45,955 nt of DNA from Magnetococcales bacterium (lineage in GTDB: Bacteria; Pseudomonadota; Magnetococcia; Magnetococcales; UBA8363), in assembly GCA_002753515.1 (NCBI GenBank), contig PEAK01000030.1:1-45955 (forward strand), written 5' to 3'. This document shows, in pieces, positions 33,951 to 45,794 of this stretch. The position numbers and the translations under genes are program-made. The notes beneath the pieces were generated by a model. That model did not search any database, was not told the origin of the DNA, and saw nothing but the letters and a program-made list of their open reading frames with translations. How positions within the stretch are numbered: position 1 is the first letter of the stretch; every line of letters begins with the position of its first letter.

Positions 33951-34796
33951 TCACAACAGGGCATCGATTGCGGCACATTCGTCAGCGGAAAGGGAAAAAT
34001 CAAAGATTGCCAAATCTTCCTGCATGTGGGCTGCGGATGAGGTCCCTGTGAGGGGAATGATATTTCTCAGGCTTAAATAACGAAAAAAAACCTGGGCTGC
34101 GGTACGCAGATATTTCTTCGTTAGATGGTACAAGGTGGTATGGGCCAATACCTTCGGGTTGGCAGTGAGGGTCCAGAAACTTTGATAAATAATTCCCTGG
34201 CGCTGGCAATAGGCGCGGATGGACCGGTCGTAGCGGGTTTGCTGGTAGAAACGGTTTTGGATTACCGCCGGCTTAACCTTGACGGATTGTACCAAGGTTT
34301 CCAGTTGCTGCTGGTCATAACAATTGCTGATTCCCAACTGTCGGGCACCGTGATTGGCGTAGATGGCCTCCATGGCTGTCCAAACTTCACGCATCTCTTC
34401 ACGCTGAGCCAGAGGTGAATGCAAAATCAGTCCGTCCAGGTAGGTCGTGTGCAAATTTTCAAGGGAGCGTTGAAAAGATTGGGCAACCTGTTCGCTGAGA
34501 CGAGCGGTGGGATTGTAGGGAAGTCGCAGCGAATCTTGACCGCTTAATGGGGTGAATTTACTTTGCAGATACAACTCCTGGCGTTTGATGCCCTTCCGTT
34601 CGACGGCAACCAAGGCCTTTCCCACCCCTTCCTCATGGTAGTGTTTGGGTTGACAGGCGGTGTCAATGCCACGGAATCCCAAGCCAATGGCCTGTTCCAC
34701 CAGGTCTGCTGTCCGTTCCTTTTTCCAGGCGGTACCGTAAATGATCCCTGGCATGGGGACACCGTGGGCGGAGACGACAACATTGTTTGGATGCAT
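33951..34796 (-). CDS. Aldo/keto reductase
   Basis: 281 residues, a full-length single-domain (beta/alpha)8 aldo/keto reductase. The catalytic set is present: Asp in GFRGIDTA, Tyr in PKHYHEEGVG, Lys in YLQSKF, and His in DGLILHSP. NADPH-binding features occur near the C-terminus (IIPLTGTSSAAHMQEDL). It should reduce a carbonyl compound; the substrate cannot be told. GGGGGA lies eight bases upstream of the ATG. It is a separate unit from Kup upstream. Confidence 0.88.
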   Translation of the reverse strand: MHPNNVVVSAHGVPMPGIIYGTAWKKERTADLVEQAIGLGFRGIDTACQPKHYHEEGVGKALVAVERKGIKRQELYLQSKFTPLSGQDSLRLPYNPTARLSEQVAQSFQRSLENLHTTYLDGLILHSPLAQREEMREVWTAMEAIYANHGARQLGISNCYDQQQLETLVQSVKVKPAVIQNRFYQQTRYDRSIRAYCQRQGIIYQSFWTLTANPKVLAHTTLYHLTKKYLRTAAQVFFRYLSLRNIIPLTGTSSAAHMQEDLAIFDFSLSADECAAIDALL

Positions 34797-38183: not shown

Positions 38184-38767
38184 GCGTGTTGACATTCAAT
38201 AACTGATCGCTATTAACTCACATTAATTTGGACTATACTGTCCCTTTTGAGGCTGGAGATGGACCGGAAGGGTTCCTTATCGACGGTTCCACTATCAGGG
38301 TCCATCAACATGCGGCGGGCGCTCAAAAAAAAGAGGGAAAGCAAGCCATCGGAAAATCAAGAGGGGGGTGGAGGACAAAAATTCATGCCGGGGTTGATGC
38401 TCTTGGAAATCCACTGCGAATCCTCCTGACTAAAGGCCAAGCTCATGATGTGACCAAGGCAGAGGAAATGCTTGATGGGTTCCACCCTGAAATGGTGATT
38501 GCCGACAAAGCCTACGACGCGGATCACTTCATAACCGCCATTCATAATGCTGGGGCAGTGCCGGTCATTCCACCAGAAAGCAACCGAAATGAGCAACGAG
38601 ATTACGATGCGCATTGGTACAAGGACCGAAACCTCGTCGAGCGTTTTTTTAATCGAATCAAACAAGTTCGCCGCATCGCAACGCGCTGAGAGAAACATGA
38701 TCGAAACTATGAAGCCATGCTTCAGATTGTTTGTGTGTTGATATGGTTGGCCTGAATGTCAACGCGC
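38184..38767 (+). mobile_element. Truncated IS5-family element
   Basis: About 584 bp bounded by inverted ends: left GCGTGTTGACATTCA (38184-38198) and right, read inward, GCGCGTTGACATTCA (38753-38767), differing at one position. It holds only the C-terminal half of an IS5-family (IS427-like) transposase, so the element has an internal deletion and is immobile on its own. No clear target duplication is seen. Confidence 0.7.
38228..38755 (+). pseudogene. IS5-family transposase remnant with a nonsense codon
   Basis: The N-terminal half is missing. The rest reads IDGSTIRVHQHAAGA, SRGGWRTKIHAGVDALGNP, VIADKAYDAD and NLVERFFNRIKQVRRIATR, the DDE-type core of the IS427 group. A TGA at 38687-38689 stands where the family has Tyr (ATRYEK); after it the frame continues EKHDRNYEAMLQIVCVLIWL before a final TGA at 38755. 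So the gene is both truncated and interrupted. Confidence 0.8.
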
Positions 38768-40180: not shown

Positions 40181-41401
40181 ATGCAACGCCGCCAATTCCT
40201 GCAATCGTCCGCTCTGGCAGCTACGGCCATGGCCCTGGGACAACCGGTGCGAACACCCCTTGCGGAAGAGACCCCGGAAGCCCGCCCGGTTATCAAACGC
40301 TACCGTAACCTGGGCAAGACGGCCATCAGCATGAGTGATGTCTCCTTCGGAGCCGGCAACGTCCCTTCCGGTTCCCTGATCCTGCGCGCCGTCGACCGGG
40401 GTATCAACTATTTCGATACCGCGCCCGACTACGGCCCCAGTGAAGATCATATTGGCGACGCCCTGAAAAAAATCAAGAATCGCGACAAGATCGCCATCGC
40501 TTCCAAATTTTGCCGCCCGATCCCCTATCAGGAAGGGGTGAGCCATCTGCAACCGGGATCGAGCGTCTCGGACTATGTGGGATCGGTGGAAAACAGCCTG
40601 AAACGGATGGGAACCGAATACCTGGACGTCGTTTTCGTCCACGCCATCGGCGAAAAGAGCGACATGGAACACGAAAAACGCCGCCTGTTGGATGACAACA
40701 TGCTGACGGCGGTGGACCAGCTCAAGAAATCCGGGAAAGTGAAATACCTGGCCGTTTCGTCCCACGGCCCCCACAACATGGAACCCCTCATGCAGGAGGC
40801 GATCGCGTCGGGACACTTCGACCTGATGATGATCGCTTTCAACTTCATGAAATTTCCCAAAATCCCCGATATCCTGCGCCAAGCCAAAGAGAAGGGTGTC
40901 GGCGTGATCGCCATGAAAACCCTGGCGGGGGCCAAGGACAGCGGTGCCAAATTGGCAACGGGACAGTTTGAACAAGCCGCCCTGAAATGGGTCTTGCAAC
41001 ACGAGGCCATCGCCGGACTTGTCATCACCTTCAAGTCGGCCCAGGATTTGGATACCTACCTGCCCGCCTCGGGGCAGACGTTCACCGCCCGGGATCAACA
41101 CGCCCTCGATCAGTACGCCGCCCTGCACGGGGCCAGCTATTGCCGTACCGGCTGCGGTGATTGCCTGGGGGCCTGCGCCGACAATGTCAACATTGCCGCC
41201 ATCCTGCGCTACAACATGTACTTCAAGGAGTATGGCGAGCAAAAACGAGCCATGCAATCCTATGCCGCCCTGGATCAATCGGCACACCCCTGTTTGTCAT
41301 GCGCCACATCGGCCTGTGACGCCGCTTGTCCCCATGGCTTGTCGGTCACCTCGCAACTCCAGGAGGCGCATCGCAACCTGACCCTGTCCACCATTGTCTG
41401 A
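40181..41401 (+). CDS. Tat-exported aldo/keto reductase with two C-terminal Fe-S motifs
   Basis: 406 residues. A Tat signal (MQRRQFLQSSALAATAMALG) directs the folded protein to the periplasm. The aldo/keto reductase fold follows, with the catalytic set Asp79 and Tyr84 (FDTAPDYGPSED), Lys109 (IASKF) and His154 (VFVHAIG). Beyond residue 310 there are two cysteine motifs: C321-x3-C-x2-C-x3-C332 and C371-x2-C-x4-C-x3-C383 followed by Pro, likely for two 4Fe-4S clusters. So electrons may come from Fe-S centres rather than from NADPH. GAGGAG lies seven bases before the ATG. It is the first gene of a four-gene operon with DUF6599, DUF362 and NapH/NapG-like products. Confidence 0.9.
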   Translation: MQRRQFLQSSALAATAMALGQPVRTPLAEETPEARPVIKRYRNLGKTAISMSDVSFGAGNVPSGSLILRAVDRGINYFDTAPDYGPSEDHIGDALKKIKNRDKIAIASKFCRPIPYQEGVSHLQPGSSVSDYVGSVENSLKRMGTEYLDVVFVHAIGEKSDMEHEKRRLLDDNMLTAVDQLKKSGKVKYLAVSSHGPHNMEPLMQEAIASGHFDLMMIAFNFMKFPKIPDILRQAKEKGVGVIAMKTLAGAKDSGAKLATGQFEQAALKWVLQHEAIAGLVITFKSAQDLDTYLPASGQTFTARDQHALDQYAALHGASYCRTGCGDCLGACADNVNIAAILRYNMYFKEYGEQKRAMQSYAALDQSAHPCLSCATSACDAACPHGLSVTSQLQEAHRNLTLSTIV

Positions 41402-41433
41402 AGGTGGCAACGTAAATCCTTTGGTCACCCCCC

Positions 41434-42384
41434 ATGGCCACTCCCATCCCCACACCCGAACCCCATCCCTGGATTCGCGTGGCGTTGTTGCTGCTGCTGC
41501 CGCTGCTGGCAACGCTGGTGTGGTGGGATGGACAGCATTATGACCCCGACGTACTGCAATTCGCCAAAGGGGGGAACGCCCCCTCCGTGGACAGCGCCTG
41601 GATCCCTGAAAAAATAGGGGCCCTGGTCCGTATCGGCAAACTCCGGCACTACACGAAAGAAACCTTGTCGGATTACGTCGATGGTCACGCCGACGCCTAT
41701 CTGGCCCAGGGATTCAAACACCTGGTGGTAGCCGATTACGGCGTCGATGCCACGACCAATCAACCACAACTGACCGTCGATGTTTTCGACATGGAACAAC
41801 CCCTCAACGCCTTCGGCATGTTGATGAACGAAACCACGGCCAATGCCAAGGCCGTCACCATCGGTGCCATGGGCTTCGCGCACAACCAAGCGCTTGATTT
41901 CATTCAAGGGGGCTTCCTCATCAAGTTGACCACCTTCACCCCCGACCAACCCCTGGAAACCTGGGCCGCGCACCTGGCAACCCCCCTGACGGCCAAAACG
42001 GGGAAATCAACCCTGGTGTTCGGATTCCCCGATCTTGGGGACGCGGTTTCCACCCGCTTCATTCGGGAAAATTATCATGGGTTGGCCTTTTTGCGAAACG
42101 TCCTGGTTCGACAGTTCAAGCGGGGGGAGGTCACGTTTGAAGCCTTCCTGCTCACCGGATCCCCCAACGAACTGGCCGCGGTGAAAAAACAGCTCACGGA
42201 ATTCCTGGCCCGGGAAAAAATAACCACCTCCACCATCACCGAAGGTTCCCTGCCCCGACTCGTTATCCACGATCCCTATGAAGGGGATTGGTTCGTCATG
42301 GAACGCAAGTCGCAATGGCTCGGTATCTTCGGCACTGATGCGCAAACTTTGGAAACCCCCTTGAAGGACTTTTTCCAGCCATGA
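41434..42384 (+). CDS. DUF6599 membrane-anchored protein
   Basis: 316 residues. One N-terminal helix (IRVALLLLLPLLATLVWW) anchors a periplasmic domain that fits the DUF6599 pattern: LSDYVDGHADAYLAQGFKHL, then QLTVDVFDMEQPLNAFGML and AVTIGAMGF. A second similar part covers the C-terminal half (AFLLTGSPNELAAVKKQL). The family is uncharacterised but recurs beside Fe-S proteins. Its stop overlaps the ATG of the DUF362 gene (42381-42384), so both are translated together. There is no good ribosome-binding site, which suggests coupling to the gene before it too. Confidence 0.82.
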   Translation: MATPIPTPEPHPWIRVALLLLLPLLATLVWWDGQHYDPDVLQFAKGGNAPSVDSAWIPEKIGALVRIGKLRHYTKETLSDYVDGHADAYLAQGFKHLVVADYGVDATTNQPQLTVDVFDMEQPLNAFGMLMNETTANAKAVTIGAMGFAHNQALDFIQGGFLIKLTTFTPDQPLETWAAHLATPLTAKTGKSTLVFGFPDLGDAVSTRFIRENYHGLAFLRNVLVRQFKRGEVTFEAFLLTGSPNELAAVKKQLTEFLAREKITTSTITEGSLPRLVIHDPYEGDWFVMERKSQWLGIFGTDAQTLETPLKDFFQP

Positions 42385-43388
42385 GCCAACACCCTGAAAA
42401 GAAACCACCTCAAAAGGTTCAGGCTACGTGGAGTCGGCGTCGGTTCGTCGAACGGATGGGCGTTCTGGCCGGTGTTTCGACCGTGTTGGCCGCCGGGGGG
42501 CTTTGGATACGGGGATCGGAACCGGTGCGACATCGGCAAGAGGAAATATTCAAACTGAAAGATTTTCGCGTGCCCGAATCAAGCCGACATCCCATCCTCG
42601 CCATCGTCCATGGCAACCATGTCGAATCCATGGTGCGGGAAGCGTTCAACACCTTGGGTGGGGTGGCACGCTTCATCCAAAAAGGGGATCGGGTCCTGTT
42701 AAAACCCAACGTGGGTTGGGATCGCCTGCCGGAACAGGCGGCCAATACCGGACCGGAATTGGTAGCCTCCGTGGCCCGTTTGTGTCGCGAGGCGGGCGCG
42801 TCGCAGGTTTGGGTCACCGATGTGTCGCTGAATGATCCCGGTCGATGCTTCGTCCGTTCGGGTATCGAACAGGCGGCGCAACAGGCGGGCGCTCATGTCT
42901 TCCTGCCGGGAAAAGAGGATTTCCGCGCCACCGACATGGGGGGCAAACTGCTCAAGGTGTGGCCGGTCAACCGTTTGTTCCATCAGGTGGACAAGGTGAT
43001 CAACCTGCCCATCGTCAAACACCACTCCCTGAGCGGATGCACCCTGGCCATGAAAAACTGGTACGGTATCATCGGCGGGCGTCGCAATCAATTGCATCAG
43101 GACATCCACACCTCCATCGTCGATCTGGCAGCGGCGGTACGCCCCACCTTGACCATCATGGACGCCACTCGGGTACTCAAAGCCAATGGTCCCACCGGTG
43201 GCAGCCTGGACGATGTCGTCCACCACGAAACCATCCTGGCCGGCTTGGACGAAGTGGCCCTGGACAGCCTCGCCCTGGGCCATCTGGATTTGACCCCCGA
43301 CAAAATCCCCTTCCTGGCCTTGGCCGAGGCGCGGGGATTGGGACGTGTGCGTTGGCAAGACCTGAACCGGTCGGAAACCCAGGTGTAG
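42381..43388 (+). CDS. Tat-exported DUF362 protein
   Basis: 335 residues. A Tat signal (WSRRRFVERMGVLAG, then hydrophobic to ~AAGG) precedes a DUF362 domain: DRVLLKPNVGWD, ASQVWVTDVSLNDPGRCF, DKVINLPIVKHHSLSGCTLAMKN and YGIIGGRRNQLHQDIH. DUF362 proteins are linked to Fe-S proteins and are thought to bind metals or act in iron-sulfur transfer; the activity is unproven. It overlaps DUF6599 upstream and precedes the NapH/NapG-like gene by nine bases. Confidence 0.88.
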   Translation: MSQHPEKKPPQKVQATWSRRRFVERMGVLAGVSTVLAAGGLWIRGSEPVRHRQEEIFKLKDFRVPESSRHPILAIVHGNHVESMVREAFNTLGGVARFIQKGDRVLLKPNVGWDRLPEQAANTGPELVASVARLCREAGASQVWVTDVSLNDPGRCFVRSGIEQAAQQAGAHVFLPGKEDFRATDMGGKLLKVWPVNRLFHQVDKVINLPIVKHHSLSGCTLAMKNWYGIIGGRRNQLHQDIHTSIVDLAAAVRPTLTIMDATRVLKANGPTGGSLDDVVHHETILAGLDEVALDSLALGHLDLTPDKIPFLALAEARGLGRVRWQDLNRSETQV

Positions 43389-43397
43389 GGTACCCTT

Positions 43398-44921
43398 ATG
43401 AAACGGACCATTCCGGGATTGCGAACCCTTCGACGCCTCTACGCCACTTTTTTCCTGCTCCTGTTCCTCCTGCTCCTCTTTGCCGGCGATTTCCGCCGCA
43501 TGCAAGGGTATGACATCCCTTTGTTCCTGGAATTGGACCCCTTGGTGGCCCTCAGTGGCTTCCTGACCAGCGTCACCGTCTACAAAGGAATGATCCTCTC
43601 CCTGGCCGTTGTGATCCCCACCCTGTTCCTCGGTCGGTTTTTTTGTTCCTGGGTGTGCCCGCTGGGAAGCCTGCATCACGTGACCGGTTTGGGCCTATTC
43701 AACCATCGCCCCTCCGCCAGCCATGCTGCCAACTCTTACAAACCCATGTTTCGCTGGAAATATCACCTCCTCATCTTTTTCCTGATCGTATCCCTGTTGG
43801 GGGGGATGCAGGCCGGTTTGCTGGATCCCATCGCCCTGTTGTTCCGTTCCCTGACGGTGGCCGTCCTCCCCATGCTGGATGGTTTGGGGTTCCCTATTTA
43901 TCCCCGCACCCCCGTCTTTCAAGGGGGTCTGCTGATCGCCACCCTGTTCCTCTTGATACTGGCGGCAAACCGTTTCATGCCCCGTTTCTGGTGTCGGGTG
44001 CTTTGTCCTTTGGGAGCCTTGCTGGGGATTCTCTCCCGTTTCGCACCCCTGGGGATCCAAAGGGATGTGGACCTGTGCAGCCATTGCAATCGTTGTTTGC
44101 ACCATTGTCAGGGGGGGTGCGATCCCCATGCCGCTTGGAGAAAATCCGAGTGCCATCTGTGCATGAACTGCATTGCCGACTGCCCCGAAGGCGCTTTGCA
44201 CTACGGATTGCCAAAATCCCGCAGCAGCATTCACCTGCCGTTGGATCTCAATCGCCGGCGCCTGTTGGAAACGGCTACCGCATCCCTGGTGATGTTGCCG
44301 TTCATGCGACACGCCCTGTCGTCGGTCACCACTGATCTACCCACCATCATCCGTCCACCCGGATCTCTGGCCGAAGATGATTTCGCCAAACGGTGTATCA
44401 AATGCGCCGCCTGCATGCGGATTTGCCCCACCAATGCCTTGCAACCCACCCTGTTGGAAGGGGGATGGGAAGGGATCTGGACCCCGATCCTGATCCCACG
44501 CATCGGCTATTGCGAACACCATTGCGTCCTCTGTGGCCGGGTTTGCCCCACCGGGGCCATCCGTGCCATCGCCGTCAACGAAAAAATCGGTCAAAAACCA
44601 TTCGACACCCCCATTCGCCTGGGAACCGCCTTTTTCGACCGGGGGCGTTGCCTCCCCTGGGCCATGGACATCCCCTGTATCGTTTGTGAAGAGGTTTGCC
44701 CCACCTCCCCCAAGGCCATTTGGTATCGTCCCGTCACCATCAGCAATCGCGACGGCGTCAGCGTCATCCTCAAGCAACCTTACCTCAAACCCGATCTGTG
44801 CATCGGCTGCGGCATCTGTGAAAACAAATGCCCGGTTGGTGGCGAAGCCGCCATTCGCGTCTCTAGTGTTGGCGAATCACGTTCCACCACCAATCGCATG
44901 CTGCTCAAAGCCAATCCGTGA
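43398..44921 (+). CDS. NapH-NapG-like membrane polyferredoxin fusion
   Basis: 507 residues. The first ~280 are NapH-like: four or five helices with CSWVCPLG (Cys 83 and 87) and CRVLCPLG (Cys 199 and 203), then two 4Fe-4S motifs (Cys 227-237 and 252-262). At ~285-305 comes NRRRLLETATASLVMLPFM, which looks like an internal Tat signal. The last 200 residues resemble NapG/MauM (IIRPPGSLAEDDFAKRC), with four more cluster motifs starting at Cys 333, 372, 418 and 468. So a quinol-side membrane protein and its periplasmic ferredoxin appear fused. It should pass electrons from quinol to the periplasmic partners encoded upstream. AGGG lies seven bases before the ATG; it ends the operon. Confidence 0.88.
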   Translation: MKRTIPGLRTLRRLYATFFLLLFLLLLFAGDFRRMQGYDIPLFLELDPLVALSGFLTSVTVYKGMILSLAVVIPTLFLGRFFCSWVCPLGSLHHVTGLGLFNHRPSASHAANSYKPMFRWKYHLLIFFLIVSLLGGMQAGLLDPIALLFRSLTVAVLPMLDGLGFPIYPRTPVFQGGLLIATLFLLILAANRFMPRFWCRVLCPLGALLGILSRFAPLGIQRDVDLCSHCNRCLHHCQGGCDPHAAWRKSECHLCMNCIADCPEGALHYGLPKSRSSIHLPLDLNRRRLLETATASLVMLPFMRHALSSVTTDLPTIIRPPGSLAEDDFAKRCIKCAACMRICPTNALQPTLLEGGWEGIWTPILIPRIGYCEHHCVLCGRVCPTGAIRAIAVNEKIGQKPFDTPIRLGTAFFDRGRCLPWAMDIPCIVCEEVCPTSPKAIWYRPVTISNRDGVSVILKQPYLKPDLCIGCGICENKCPVGGEAAIRVSSVGESRSTTNRMLLKANP

Positions 44922-45263
44922 ACCATGCGACTTGAAAAATTCTCGTTGCCTTGGTCCTTGGCACGGATGGCTCCCATATATACCATCTTGGCATCATATA
45001 ATTAGTTATATCTTTGAAGGTTTTCTGGAAATATTATTATTTATATTGTACATAAGCGCTATAGAATGCATGTTGGCCAACATTGTCAAGATTTCCAAAT
45101 GAGCCATCATGGCCACATGGGATCGGCAATCCCCATTTCCATGGGTGGCTCCCGCATTAAAACTGCTGAAGCGTTTCACATTCCCTTGATCATCGTATCC
45201 GCGCCATAGTGTAAACAAGTCCCGTTTCTTTCCCATACAGTGGCGTTATCAAGGATACCCATC
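44922..45263. other. Spacer after the redox operon
   Basis: About 340 bases, AT-rich in the middle. A minus-strand frame (45006-45236) begins MGKKRDLFTLWRGYDDQGN but has no ribosome-binding site and unknown similarity; the same LWRG pattern occurs on the minus strand at ~40080 on the other side of the operon. No terminator with a T run is seen. Confidence 0.4.
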
Positions 45264-45794
45264 ATGAATGCAACAGACACCCCCGATCCAGACAACACGT
45301 CGCTCATCCCCGTACCTTTCCGCGATGCCACCCTGTACCTGGTTGAGCATAACGGGGAGGCTTATACACCCATGAAGCCCATCATCGAGGGCATGGGTTT
45401 GTCCTGGTCTGCGCAACTGATCAAACTTAAAGAACACAAAATAAGATGGGGTATAGCGGAAATCGCTATACCTTCGATTGGCTGCAATCAGACGGCCATC
45501 TGTATGCCGCTTCGCAAGCTGCCCGCCTACCTTTCCGGCATCAACGCCAACAAGGTGGCCCCTGCAAACCAACCCGCTGTCATCGCCTTTCAAGAAGAGT
45601 GTGACAAGGCGCTATGGTCCTATTGGGACAAAGGGCGCGCCATACGTACCACGCTTCCCGGACAGGACGCCGAGTTATGGCGGCAACTGCGCCGCGAGGG
45701 CAAATACATCCGTCGATTGCAGACCGATCGTATCAAGGATTTCATTGAATACGCCAAAGTGCAAGGCAGCAAGAATGCCAACAAATACTACTAA
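45264..45794 (+). CDS. Phage antirepressor-type protein (P22_AR_N domain)
   Basis: 176 residues. The P22 antirepressor N-terminal domain is clear: VPFRDATLYLVEHNGEAYTPMKPIIEGMGLSWSAQ, CMPLRKLPAYLSGINANKV, then AVIAFQEECDKALWSYW. In phages this domain blocks repressors; in chromosomes it often marks an integrated relic. The C-terminal ~50 residues are basic and may bind DNA. AAGGA lies nine bases before the ATG at 45264; an in-frame start at 45240 is less likely. No other phage gene is in the window. Confidence 0.85.
   Translation: MNATDTPDPDNTSLIPVPFRDATLYLVEHNGEAYTPMKPIIEGMGLSWSAQLIKLKEHKIRWGIAEIAIPSIGCNQTAICMPLRKLPAYLSGINANKVAPANQPAVIAFQEECDKALWSYWDKGRAIRTTLPGQDAELWRQLRREGKYIRRLQTDRIKDFIEYAKVQGSKNANKYY

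Follow-up and report, generated by a model that had tools for sequence, protein, structure and literature searches.

The stretch of DNA examined here, hereafter the window, is 45,955 nucleotides long and makes up the whole of contig PEAK01000030.1 in the 4.33-Mb draft genome (97% complete) of a Magnetococcales bacterium (assembly GCA_002753515.1). It contains an operon of four complete open reading frames (ORFs), all on the forward strand and closely spaced (gaps of 32, −4, and 9 bp), that encode an aldo/keto reductase (AKR), a DUF6599 protein, a DUF362 protein, and a membrane polyferredoxin. This article describes the operon, its distribution, and its association with genes for the synthesis of the nickel-pincer nucleotide (NPN), and considers whether DUF362 is an NPN-dependent protein exported by the twin-arginine translocation (Tat) pathway. 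The features of the operon, with the evidence for each in parentheses, are as follows.

40181..41401, forward strand: Tat-exported AKR with a C-terminal helical Fe-S domain, 406 aa (PF00248, E 1.3e-31)
41141..41329, forward strand: the two four-cysteine motifs of the AKR, CX3CX2CX3C and CX2CX4CX3C (invariant alignment columns)
41434..42384, forward strand: membrane-anchored periplasmic DUF6599 protein, 316 aa (PF20244, E 1e-25)
42381..43388, forward strand: Tat-exported DUF362 protein, a relative of LarA and candidate NPN protein, 335 aa (PF04015, E 1.3e-49)
43023..43097, forward strand: DUF362 residues H215, K225, and H239 (invariant in 19 diverse DUF362 proteins; LarA alignment)
43398..44921, forward strand: NapH-NapG fusion polyferredoxin (NapHG), 507 aa (NCBIfam NapG, E 3.5e-25, and NapH, E 5.8e-19; several Fer4 models)
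44253..44258, forward strand: codons of the internal twin arginines R286-R287 (RRRLLE) of the fusion (motif positions)

The AKR matches PF00248 at 110 bits against a cut-off of 24 and carries twin arginines at residues 3-4 of its N-terminal signal. Its catalytic tetrad (D79/Y84/K109/H154) is invariant in 16 orthologues, as are C111 and the eight motif cysteines (C321x3C325x2C328x3C332 and C371x2C374x4C379x3C383), which bears out the Tat-exported AKR with two Fe-S motifs that had been put forward in an earlier reading of the bare sequence (the original prediction). In an AlphaFold2 (AF2) model, the barrel is predicted well and the Fe-S domain less well, and Foldseek relates the model to AKR14A1/YghZ (3n6q, 4aub). 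Barrel and tetrad are common to both types; however, the operon enzyme is exported, has an added C-terminal Fe-S domain, and differs from NADP-binding YghZ-type enzymes at several cofactor-pocket positions, as judged by sequence comparison. Given export, a retained tetrad, and an altered pocket, it is plausible that the AKR works without NADPH, the use of which in the periplasm is unlikely. Variation on this gene was seen at four other loci: two AKR matches stand in tandem before DUF6599 at L105, two successive AKR segments occur at L122, and at L180 and L182, which are distant loci of the DUF6599-DUF362-NapHG-AKR type, the AKR gene stands at the end of the set and its product has no second group of cysteines.

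DUF6599 has a single N-terminal transmembrane (TM) helix (residues 13-31) and no cysteines. Its structure model (pLDDT 87) gave weak Foldseek matches with low TM-scores to TP0453, RseB, and LprG, which are kept as a lead. No DUF6599 was present in the plasmid collection searched, a literature search on the family found no paper, and neither the DUF6599 nor the DUF362 sequence had a significant match in the PDB. DUF362 of the operon carries a twin-arginine signal; it has three cysteines, and the idea that proteins of this type are Fe-S proteins was rejected for want of a cysteine motif. A different DUF362, encoded at L118, has Fer4 domains. The reading of the locus as an Fe-S redox operon is confirmed for the AKR motifs and the NapHG clusters and not confirmed for DUF362.

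The fusion joins a NapH-like membrane part with two clusters on the cytoplasmic side to a NapG-like C-terminal part with four. Both halves of the NapGH quinol dehydrogenase are recognizable in it by their respective models. The quinol-linked membrane polyferredoxin anticipated earlier is supported, with the predicted layout of a NapHG-type quinol dehydrogenase. It departs from NapGH in being fused, in scoring below the equivalog cut-offs (88.6 versus 269 bits for NapG, 68.3 versus 234 for NapH), and in that no nitrate reductase genes were found beside the operon. A family of polyferredoxins inserted by both Sec and Tat has been described in a study that dealt with insertion, not function or partners (PMC5449189). 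With the MLMS-1 Q1NSB0 type of that study the fusion shares the same membrane part, twin arginines before the last TM segment, and four C-terminal clusters, the cytoplasmic-side clusters numbering two as opposed to three. The features that define the dual Sec/Tat layout are found in the fusion, its export being predicted from motifs, and by the pattern used the internal twin-arginine motif was found in 13 of 17 Magnetococcales orthologues.

The tight linkage of the four genes extends far beyond the window: the order AKR-DUF6599-DUF362-NapHG is kept across Magnetococcales families and in Nitrospirota, Nitrospinota, and a few Gammaproteobacteria. At E 1e-20, the AKR was found in 44 of 48 Magnetococcales members and in none of 251 other Pseudomonadota sampled. 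Among 246 Nitrospirota genomes, 23 encode the AKR, the identical 23 encode DUF6599, and every one of these also has DUF362 and NapHG; clear orthologues of all four are present in 17, and the other six have a diverged AKR-DUF6599 pair together with a diverged DUF362-NapHG pair. NapHG was found in 57 of the 246, each with a DUF362 match (DUF362 matches occur in 66), and in 34 of those 57 the DUF362-NapHG pair exists without the AKR. In genomes where AKR-DUF6599 lies apart, the DUF362 and NapHG genes are mostly found side by side at another locus, and NapHG stands alone in some. Because AKR-DUF6599 was never found without DUF362-NapHG in this sample, and the latter pair does occur alone, the operon consists of two modules, one able to stand by itself and one dependent on it. 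With sets of these sizes, co-occurrence by chance is a negligible explanation, although genomes that are related do not count as independent cases. The survey of co-occurrence that had been named as a check on the operon thus found complete association in the Nitrospirota sample, with the genes not scattered, and the interpretation of the four genes as a single conserved functional unit with a periplasmic redox architecture is supported.

Other arrangements were met in the course of this survey. At L214, L216, L217, L219, L226, and L227, all from Nitrospirota, DUF362-NapHG-like genes adjoin or lie near one another with no AKR or DUF6599 beside them, and at L296 in the gut Bacteroidota species Parabacteroides distasonis (NZ_OY725750.1, 5893-8430) a Tat-type DUF362 gene is followed by a NapH/NapG-like Fe-S gene. 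A connection with magnetosomes was considered, many of the matches being from magnetotactic bacteria, and was set aside; the record titles of many Nitrospirota and Nitrospinota matches name no magnetotactic bacteria.

DUF362 and LarA are placed in one Pfam clan, CL0471 (PMC11770544), and for that reason LarC was searched for among Magnetococcales; the linkage to lar genes described here therefore followed a prediction. LarC, which is the nickel-insertion enzyme of NPN synthesis, was found in 28 of 31 members of the order. It is absent from two incomplete genomes and from G028, where the AKR and NapHG are missing as well; since lar genes adjoin the operon in the genus of G028, a single missing stretch could lie behind the absence of all three proteins there. 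On one contig from this genus, larE lies directly after NapHG and is faced by larB-larC, and the identities of LarE, LarB, and LarC were confirmed by NCBIfam equivalog models. Across all loci examined, seven genomes have lar genes as the immediate downstream neighbours of the operon, six of them from two Magnetococcales genera and one from a gammaproteobacterium, and three arrangements occur: NapHG-larC-larB-larE, NapHG-larE with convergent larB-larC, and NapHG-larC. LarB was also found in one operon-bearing Nitrospirota genome (800 kb of genome covered), and LarE of L233, with SGGVDS and CXXC...C, is of the [4Fe-4S] type (PMC9283937). That LarBCE serve an unrelated LarA and landed beside the operon by chance is distinctly improbable in our judgement: some lineages are indeed without the linkage, but the same neighbours recur in three different arrangements, their presence had been predicted beforehand from the clan, and LarA was not found in the Magnetococcales lar neighbourhoods, the only regions searched for it, no genome-wide larA search having been made.

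These observations also bear on a model along the lines of the original prediction, in which a plain quinol-fed Fe-S chain leads to a periplasmic AKR, the roles of DUF362 and DUF6599 are structural or lie in assembly, and nickel plays no part as a cofactor. The architecture of NapHG, the Fe-S motifs of the AKR, its constant co-occurrence with NapHG, and the many loci not adjacent to lar genes, which form the majority, are all in keeping with such a chain, but it leaves unexplained the presence of larCBE beside the operon, LarC in nearly all members of the order, and the DUF362-NapHG pairs that exist without an AKR. It would also have to account for hydride delivery, which, to our knowledge, Fe-S clusters by themselves cannot provide. 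We regard this model as unlikely.

Neither the kinship of DUF362 with LarA nor the linkage to NPN genes had been noted in the original prediction, and in the literature consulted DUF362 was found as an outgroup to LarA or as an incidental mention. An alignment of eight annotated larA products keeps R75, H108, H174, K184, and H200. In a joint alignment of DUF362 and LarA, H215 of the operon protein falls in the column of His174 and K225 in that of Lys184, these being two of six invariant columns; hhalign pairs the same stretch, with a low score. H239, which like the other two is unchanged across the diverse DUF362 set, is probably the counterpart of the LarA nickel-ligand His200. The LarA superfamily (DUF2088, PF09861) thus has in common with DUF362 its Pfam clan, counterparts of His174 and Lys184, and linked larBCE. 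The literature consulted presents LarA as a redox-neutral isomerase and contains no description of an exported LarA, whereas DUF362 appears to be exported by Tat and wired to a membrane Fe-S chain. It also has no counterpart of the Lar_N and LarA_C domains, whose models gave no match in the window protein even at E 10, or of His108. LarA homologues that have a single catalytic histidine are known (PMC12393405), and one paper suggests that proteins of this kind may move the hydride to another place on the substrate (PMC7583248); in the homologues of PMC12393405 it is His174 that is replaced, as opposed to the His108 position in DUF362.

Several observations weigh against NPN dependence, and binding of the cofactor by DUF362 is put forward as a candidate property. 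LarA of L. plantarum matches the DUF362 model PF04015 at E 8e-5, just below the family cut-off, and profile-profile comparison of the two families gives E 0.08-0.1 with a probability below 1%. At the position of LarA His108, DUF362 has no histidine (stretch VTDVSLND), and H239 follows K225 by 14 residues compared with 16 for His200 and is aligned one column off. The pattern H-x9-K-x12-16-H by itself turns up in some 10% of sequences shuffled at the same composition, so the weight of the motif rests on conservation and alignment. Finally, among the other loci for which sufficient sequence beyond the operon was available, most show no lar linkage, and none of those from Nitrospirota does.

With these points weighed, our preferred reading, to which we assign a probability of about 0.6, is that the operon is a periplasmic redox system around DUF362 as an NPN protein. 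LarB, LarE, and LarC, which are taken to be cytoplasmic, would make NPN in the cytoplasm, where DUF362 would be loaded with it. Lys225 would probably be the attachment site, His239 the nickel ligand, and His215 the acid/base residue; the loaded protein would then be exported in folded form by Tat. Cargo of the Tat pathway typically consists of folded, cofactor-loaded proteins, and with LarBCE in the cytoplasm loading before export would be consistent with this. NapH-NapG, with its six Fe-S clusters distributed across the membrane, would exchange electrons with periplasmic proteins, and the AKR-Fe-S protein together with membrane-anchored DUF6599 would form a dedicated partner module dependent on DUF362-NapHG. 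Because the AKR keeps its acid/base site, the reaction would probably involve hydride at a C-OH/C=O group, with no free NADPH taking part.

Electrons would preferably flow from quinol through NapHG and the periplasmic partners to the substrate, since characterized NapGH proteins are quinol dehydrogenases that send electrons outwards, as PMC5449189 states from earlier work. A variant that is compatible with the cofactor claim runs the system as a dehydrogenase, in which a periplasmic hydroxy compound is oxidized and its electrons pass via NapHG to the quinone pool. Fe-S chains are in principle reversible and LarA begins its reaction by removing a hydride from a 2-hydroxy acid (PMC11770544), but the outward direction of the known NapGH enzymes makes this variant doubtful. 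Alternatively, the hydride cofactor might sit in the AKR itself. It would then be NADP(H) taken up before the protein is exported by Tat, or NPN occupying the NADPH site, and DUF362 would hand it over or regenerate it. The invariant tetrad and the pyrophosphate and adenosine site positions, which are unlike those of NADP-binding YghZ-type AKRs, would suit this arrangement, as would the nature of NPN, a pyridinium mononucleotide derived from nicotinic acid adenine dinucleotide (PMC11770544). However, the AKR has no obvious NPN lysine/histidine pair, its pocket was compared by sequence only and has an SSH motif in common with a YghZ-like protein, and DUF362-NapHG exists without it, all of which makes this alternative very improbable.

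The GC content of the operon (58.4%) exceeds that of its flanks (47-50%), a contrast that had been taken as a hint of transfer. The local enrichment is real, but against the sampled genome (54.3%) the operon lies within 1.4 standard deviations, 6.6% of sampled 4.7-kb genome stretches equal or exceed it, and in 17 relatives operon GC minus flank GC ranges from −0.6 to +6 points; the contrast comes from AT-rich flanks and not from a foreign operon. Inside Magnetococcales the AKR tree agrees with taxonomy, and thus shows no sign of recent transfer in an order where nearly all members carry the gene. Recent horizontal transfer was rejected on these two grounds; the gene may have passed from one phylum to another long ago. 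The operon at L067 (Candidatus Magnetominusculus xianensis contig111) groups inside Magnetococcales; another copy in that assembly (L094) is of the Nitrospirota type, and contamination of the assembly is likely. Elsewhere in the window, an ordinary AKR without the Fe-S extension is encoded about 6 kb from the operon (33951-34796, reverse strand), a fragment matching a DDE transposase family lies upstream (38228-38689, forward strand), and an ORF with a P22_AR antirepressor N-terminal domain lies just past the operon (45240-45794, forward strand).

In approximately 15% of genomes analysed, larB, larE, and larC are present without larA, which points to unknown NPN-using proteins (PMC11796402, mBio 2024). 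To this published question the operon offers a candidate answer in DUF362, one that comes with named residues, a likely electron supplier in NapHG, and a partner enzyme. More tentatively, and at somewhat less than even odds, DUF362 may be the non-LarA user of NPN in many of the larBCE genomes without larA, with the operon encoding an exported version of it that would act in the periplasm as a nickel-pincer oxidoreductase and perform net redox chemistry with electrons from the quinone pool. If so, NPN would serve in net redox and would do so beyond the cytoplasm, neither of which was found described in the literature consulted, and DUF362, DUF6599, and the fused polyferredoxin would acquire a shared function.

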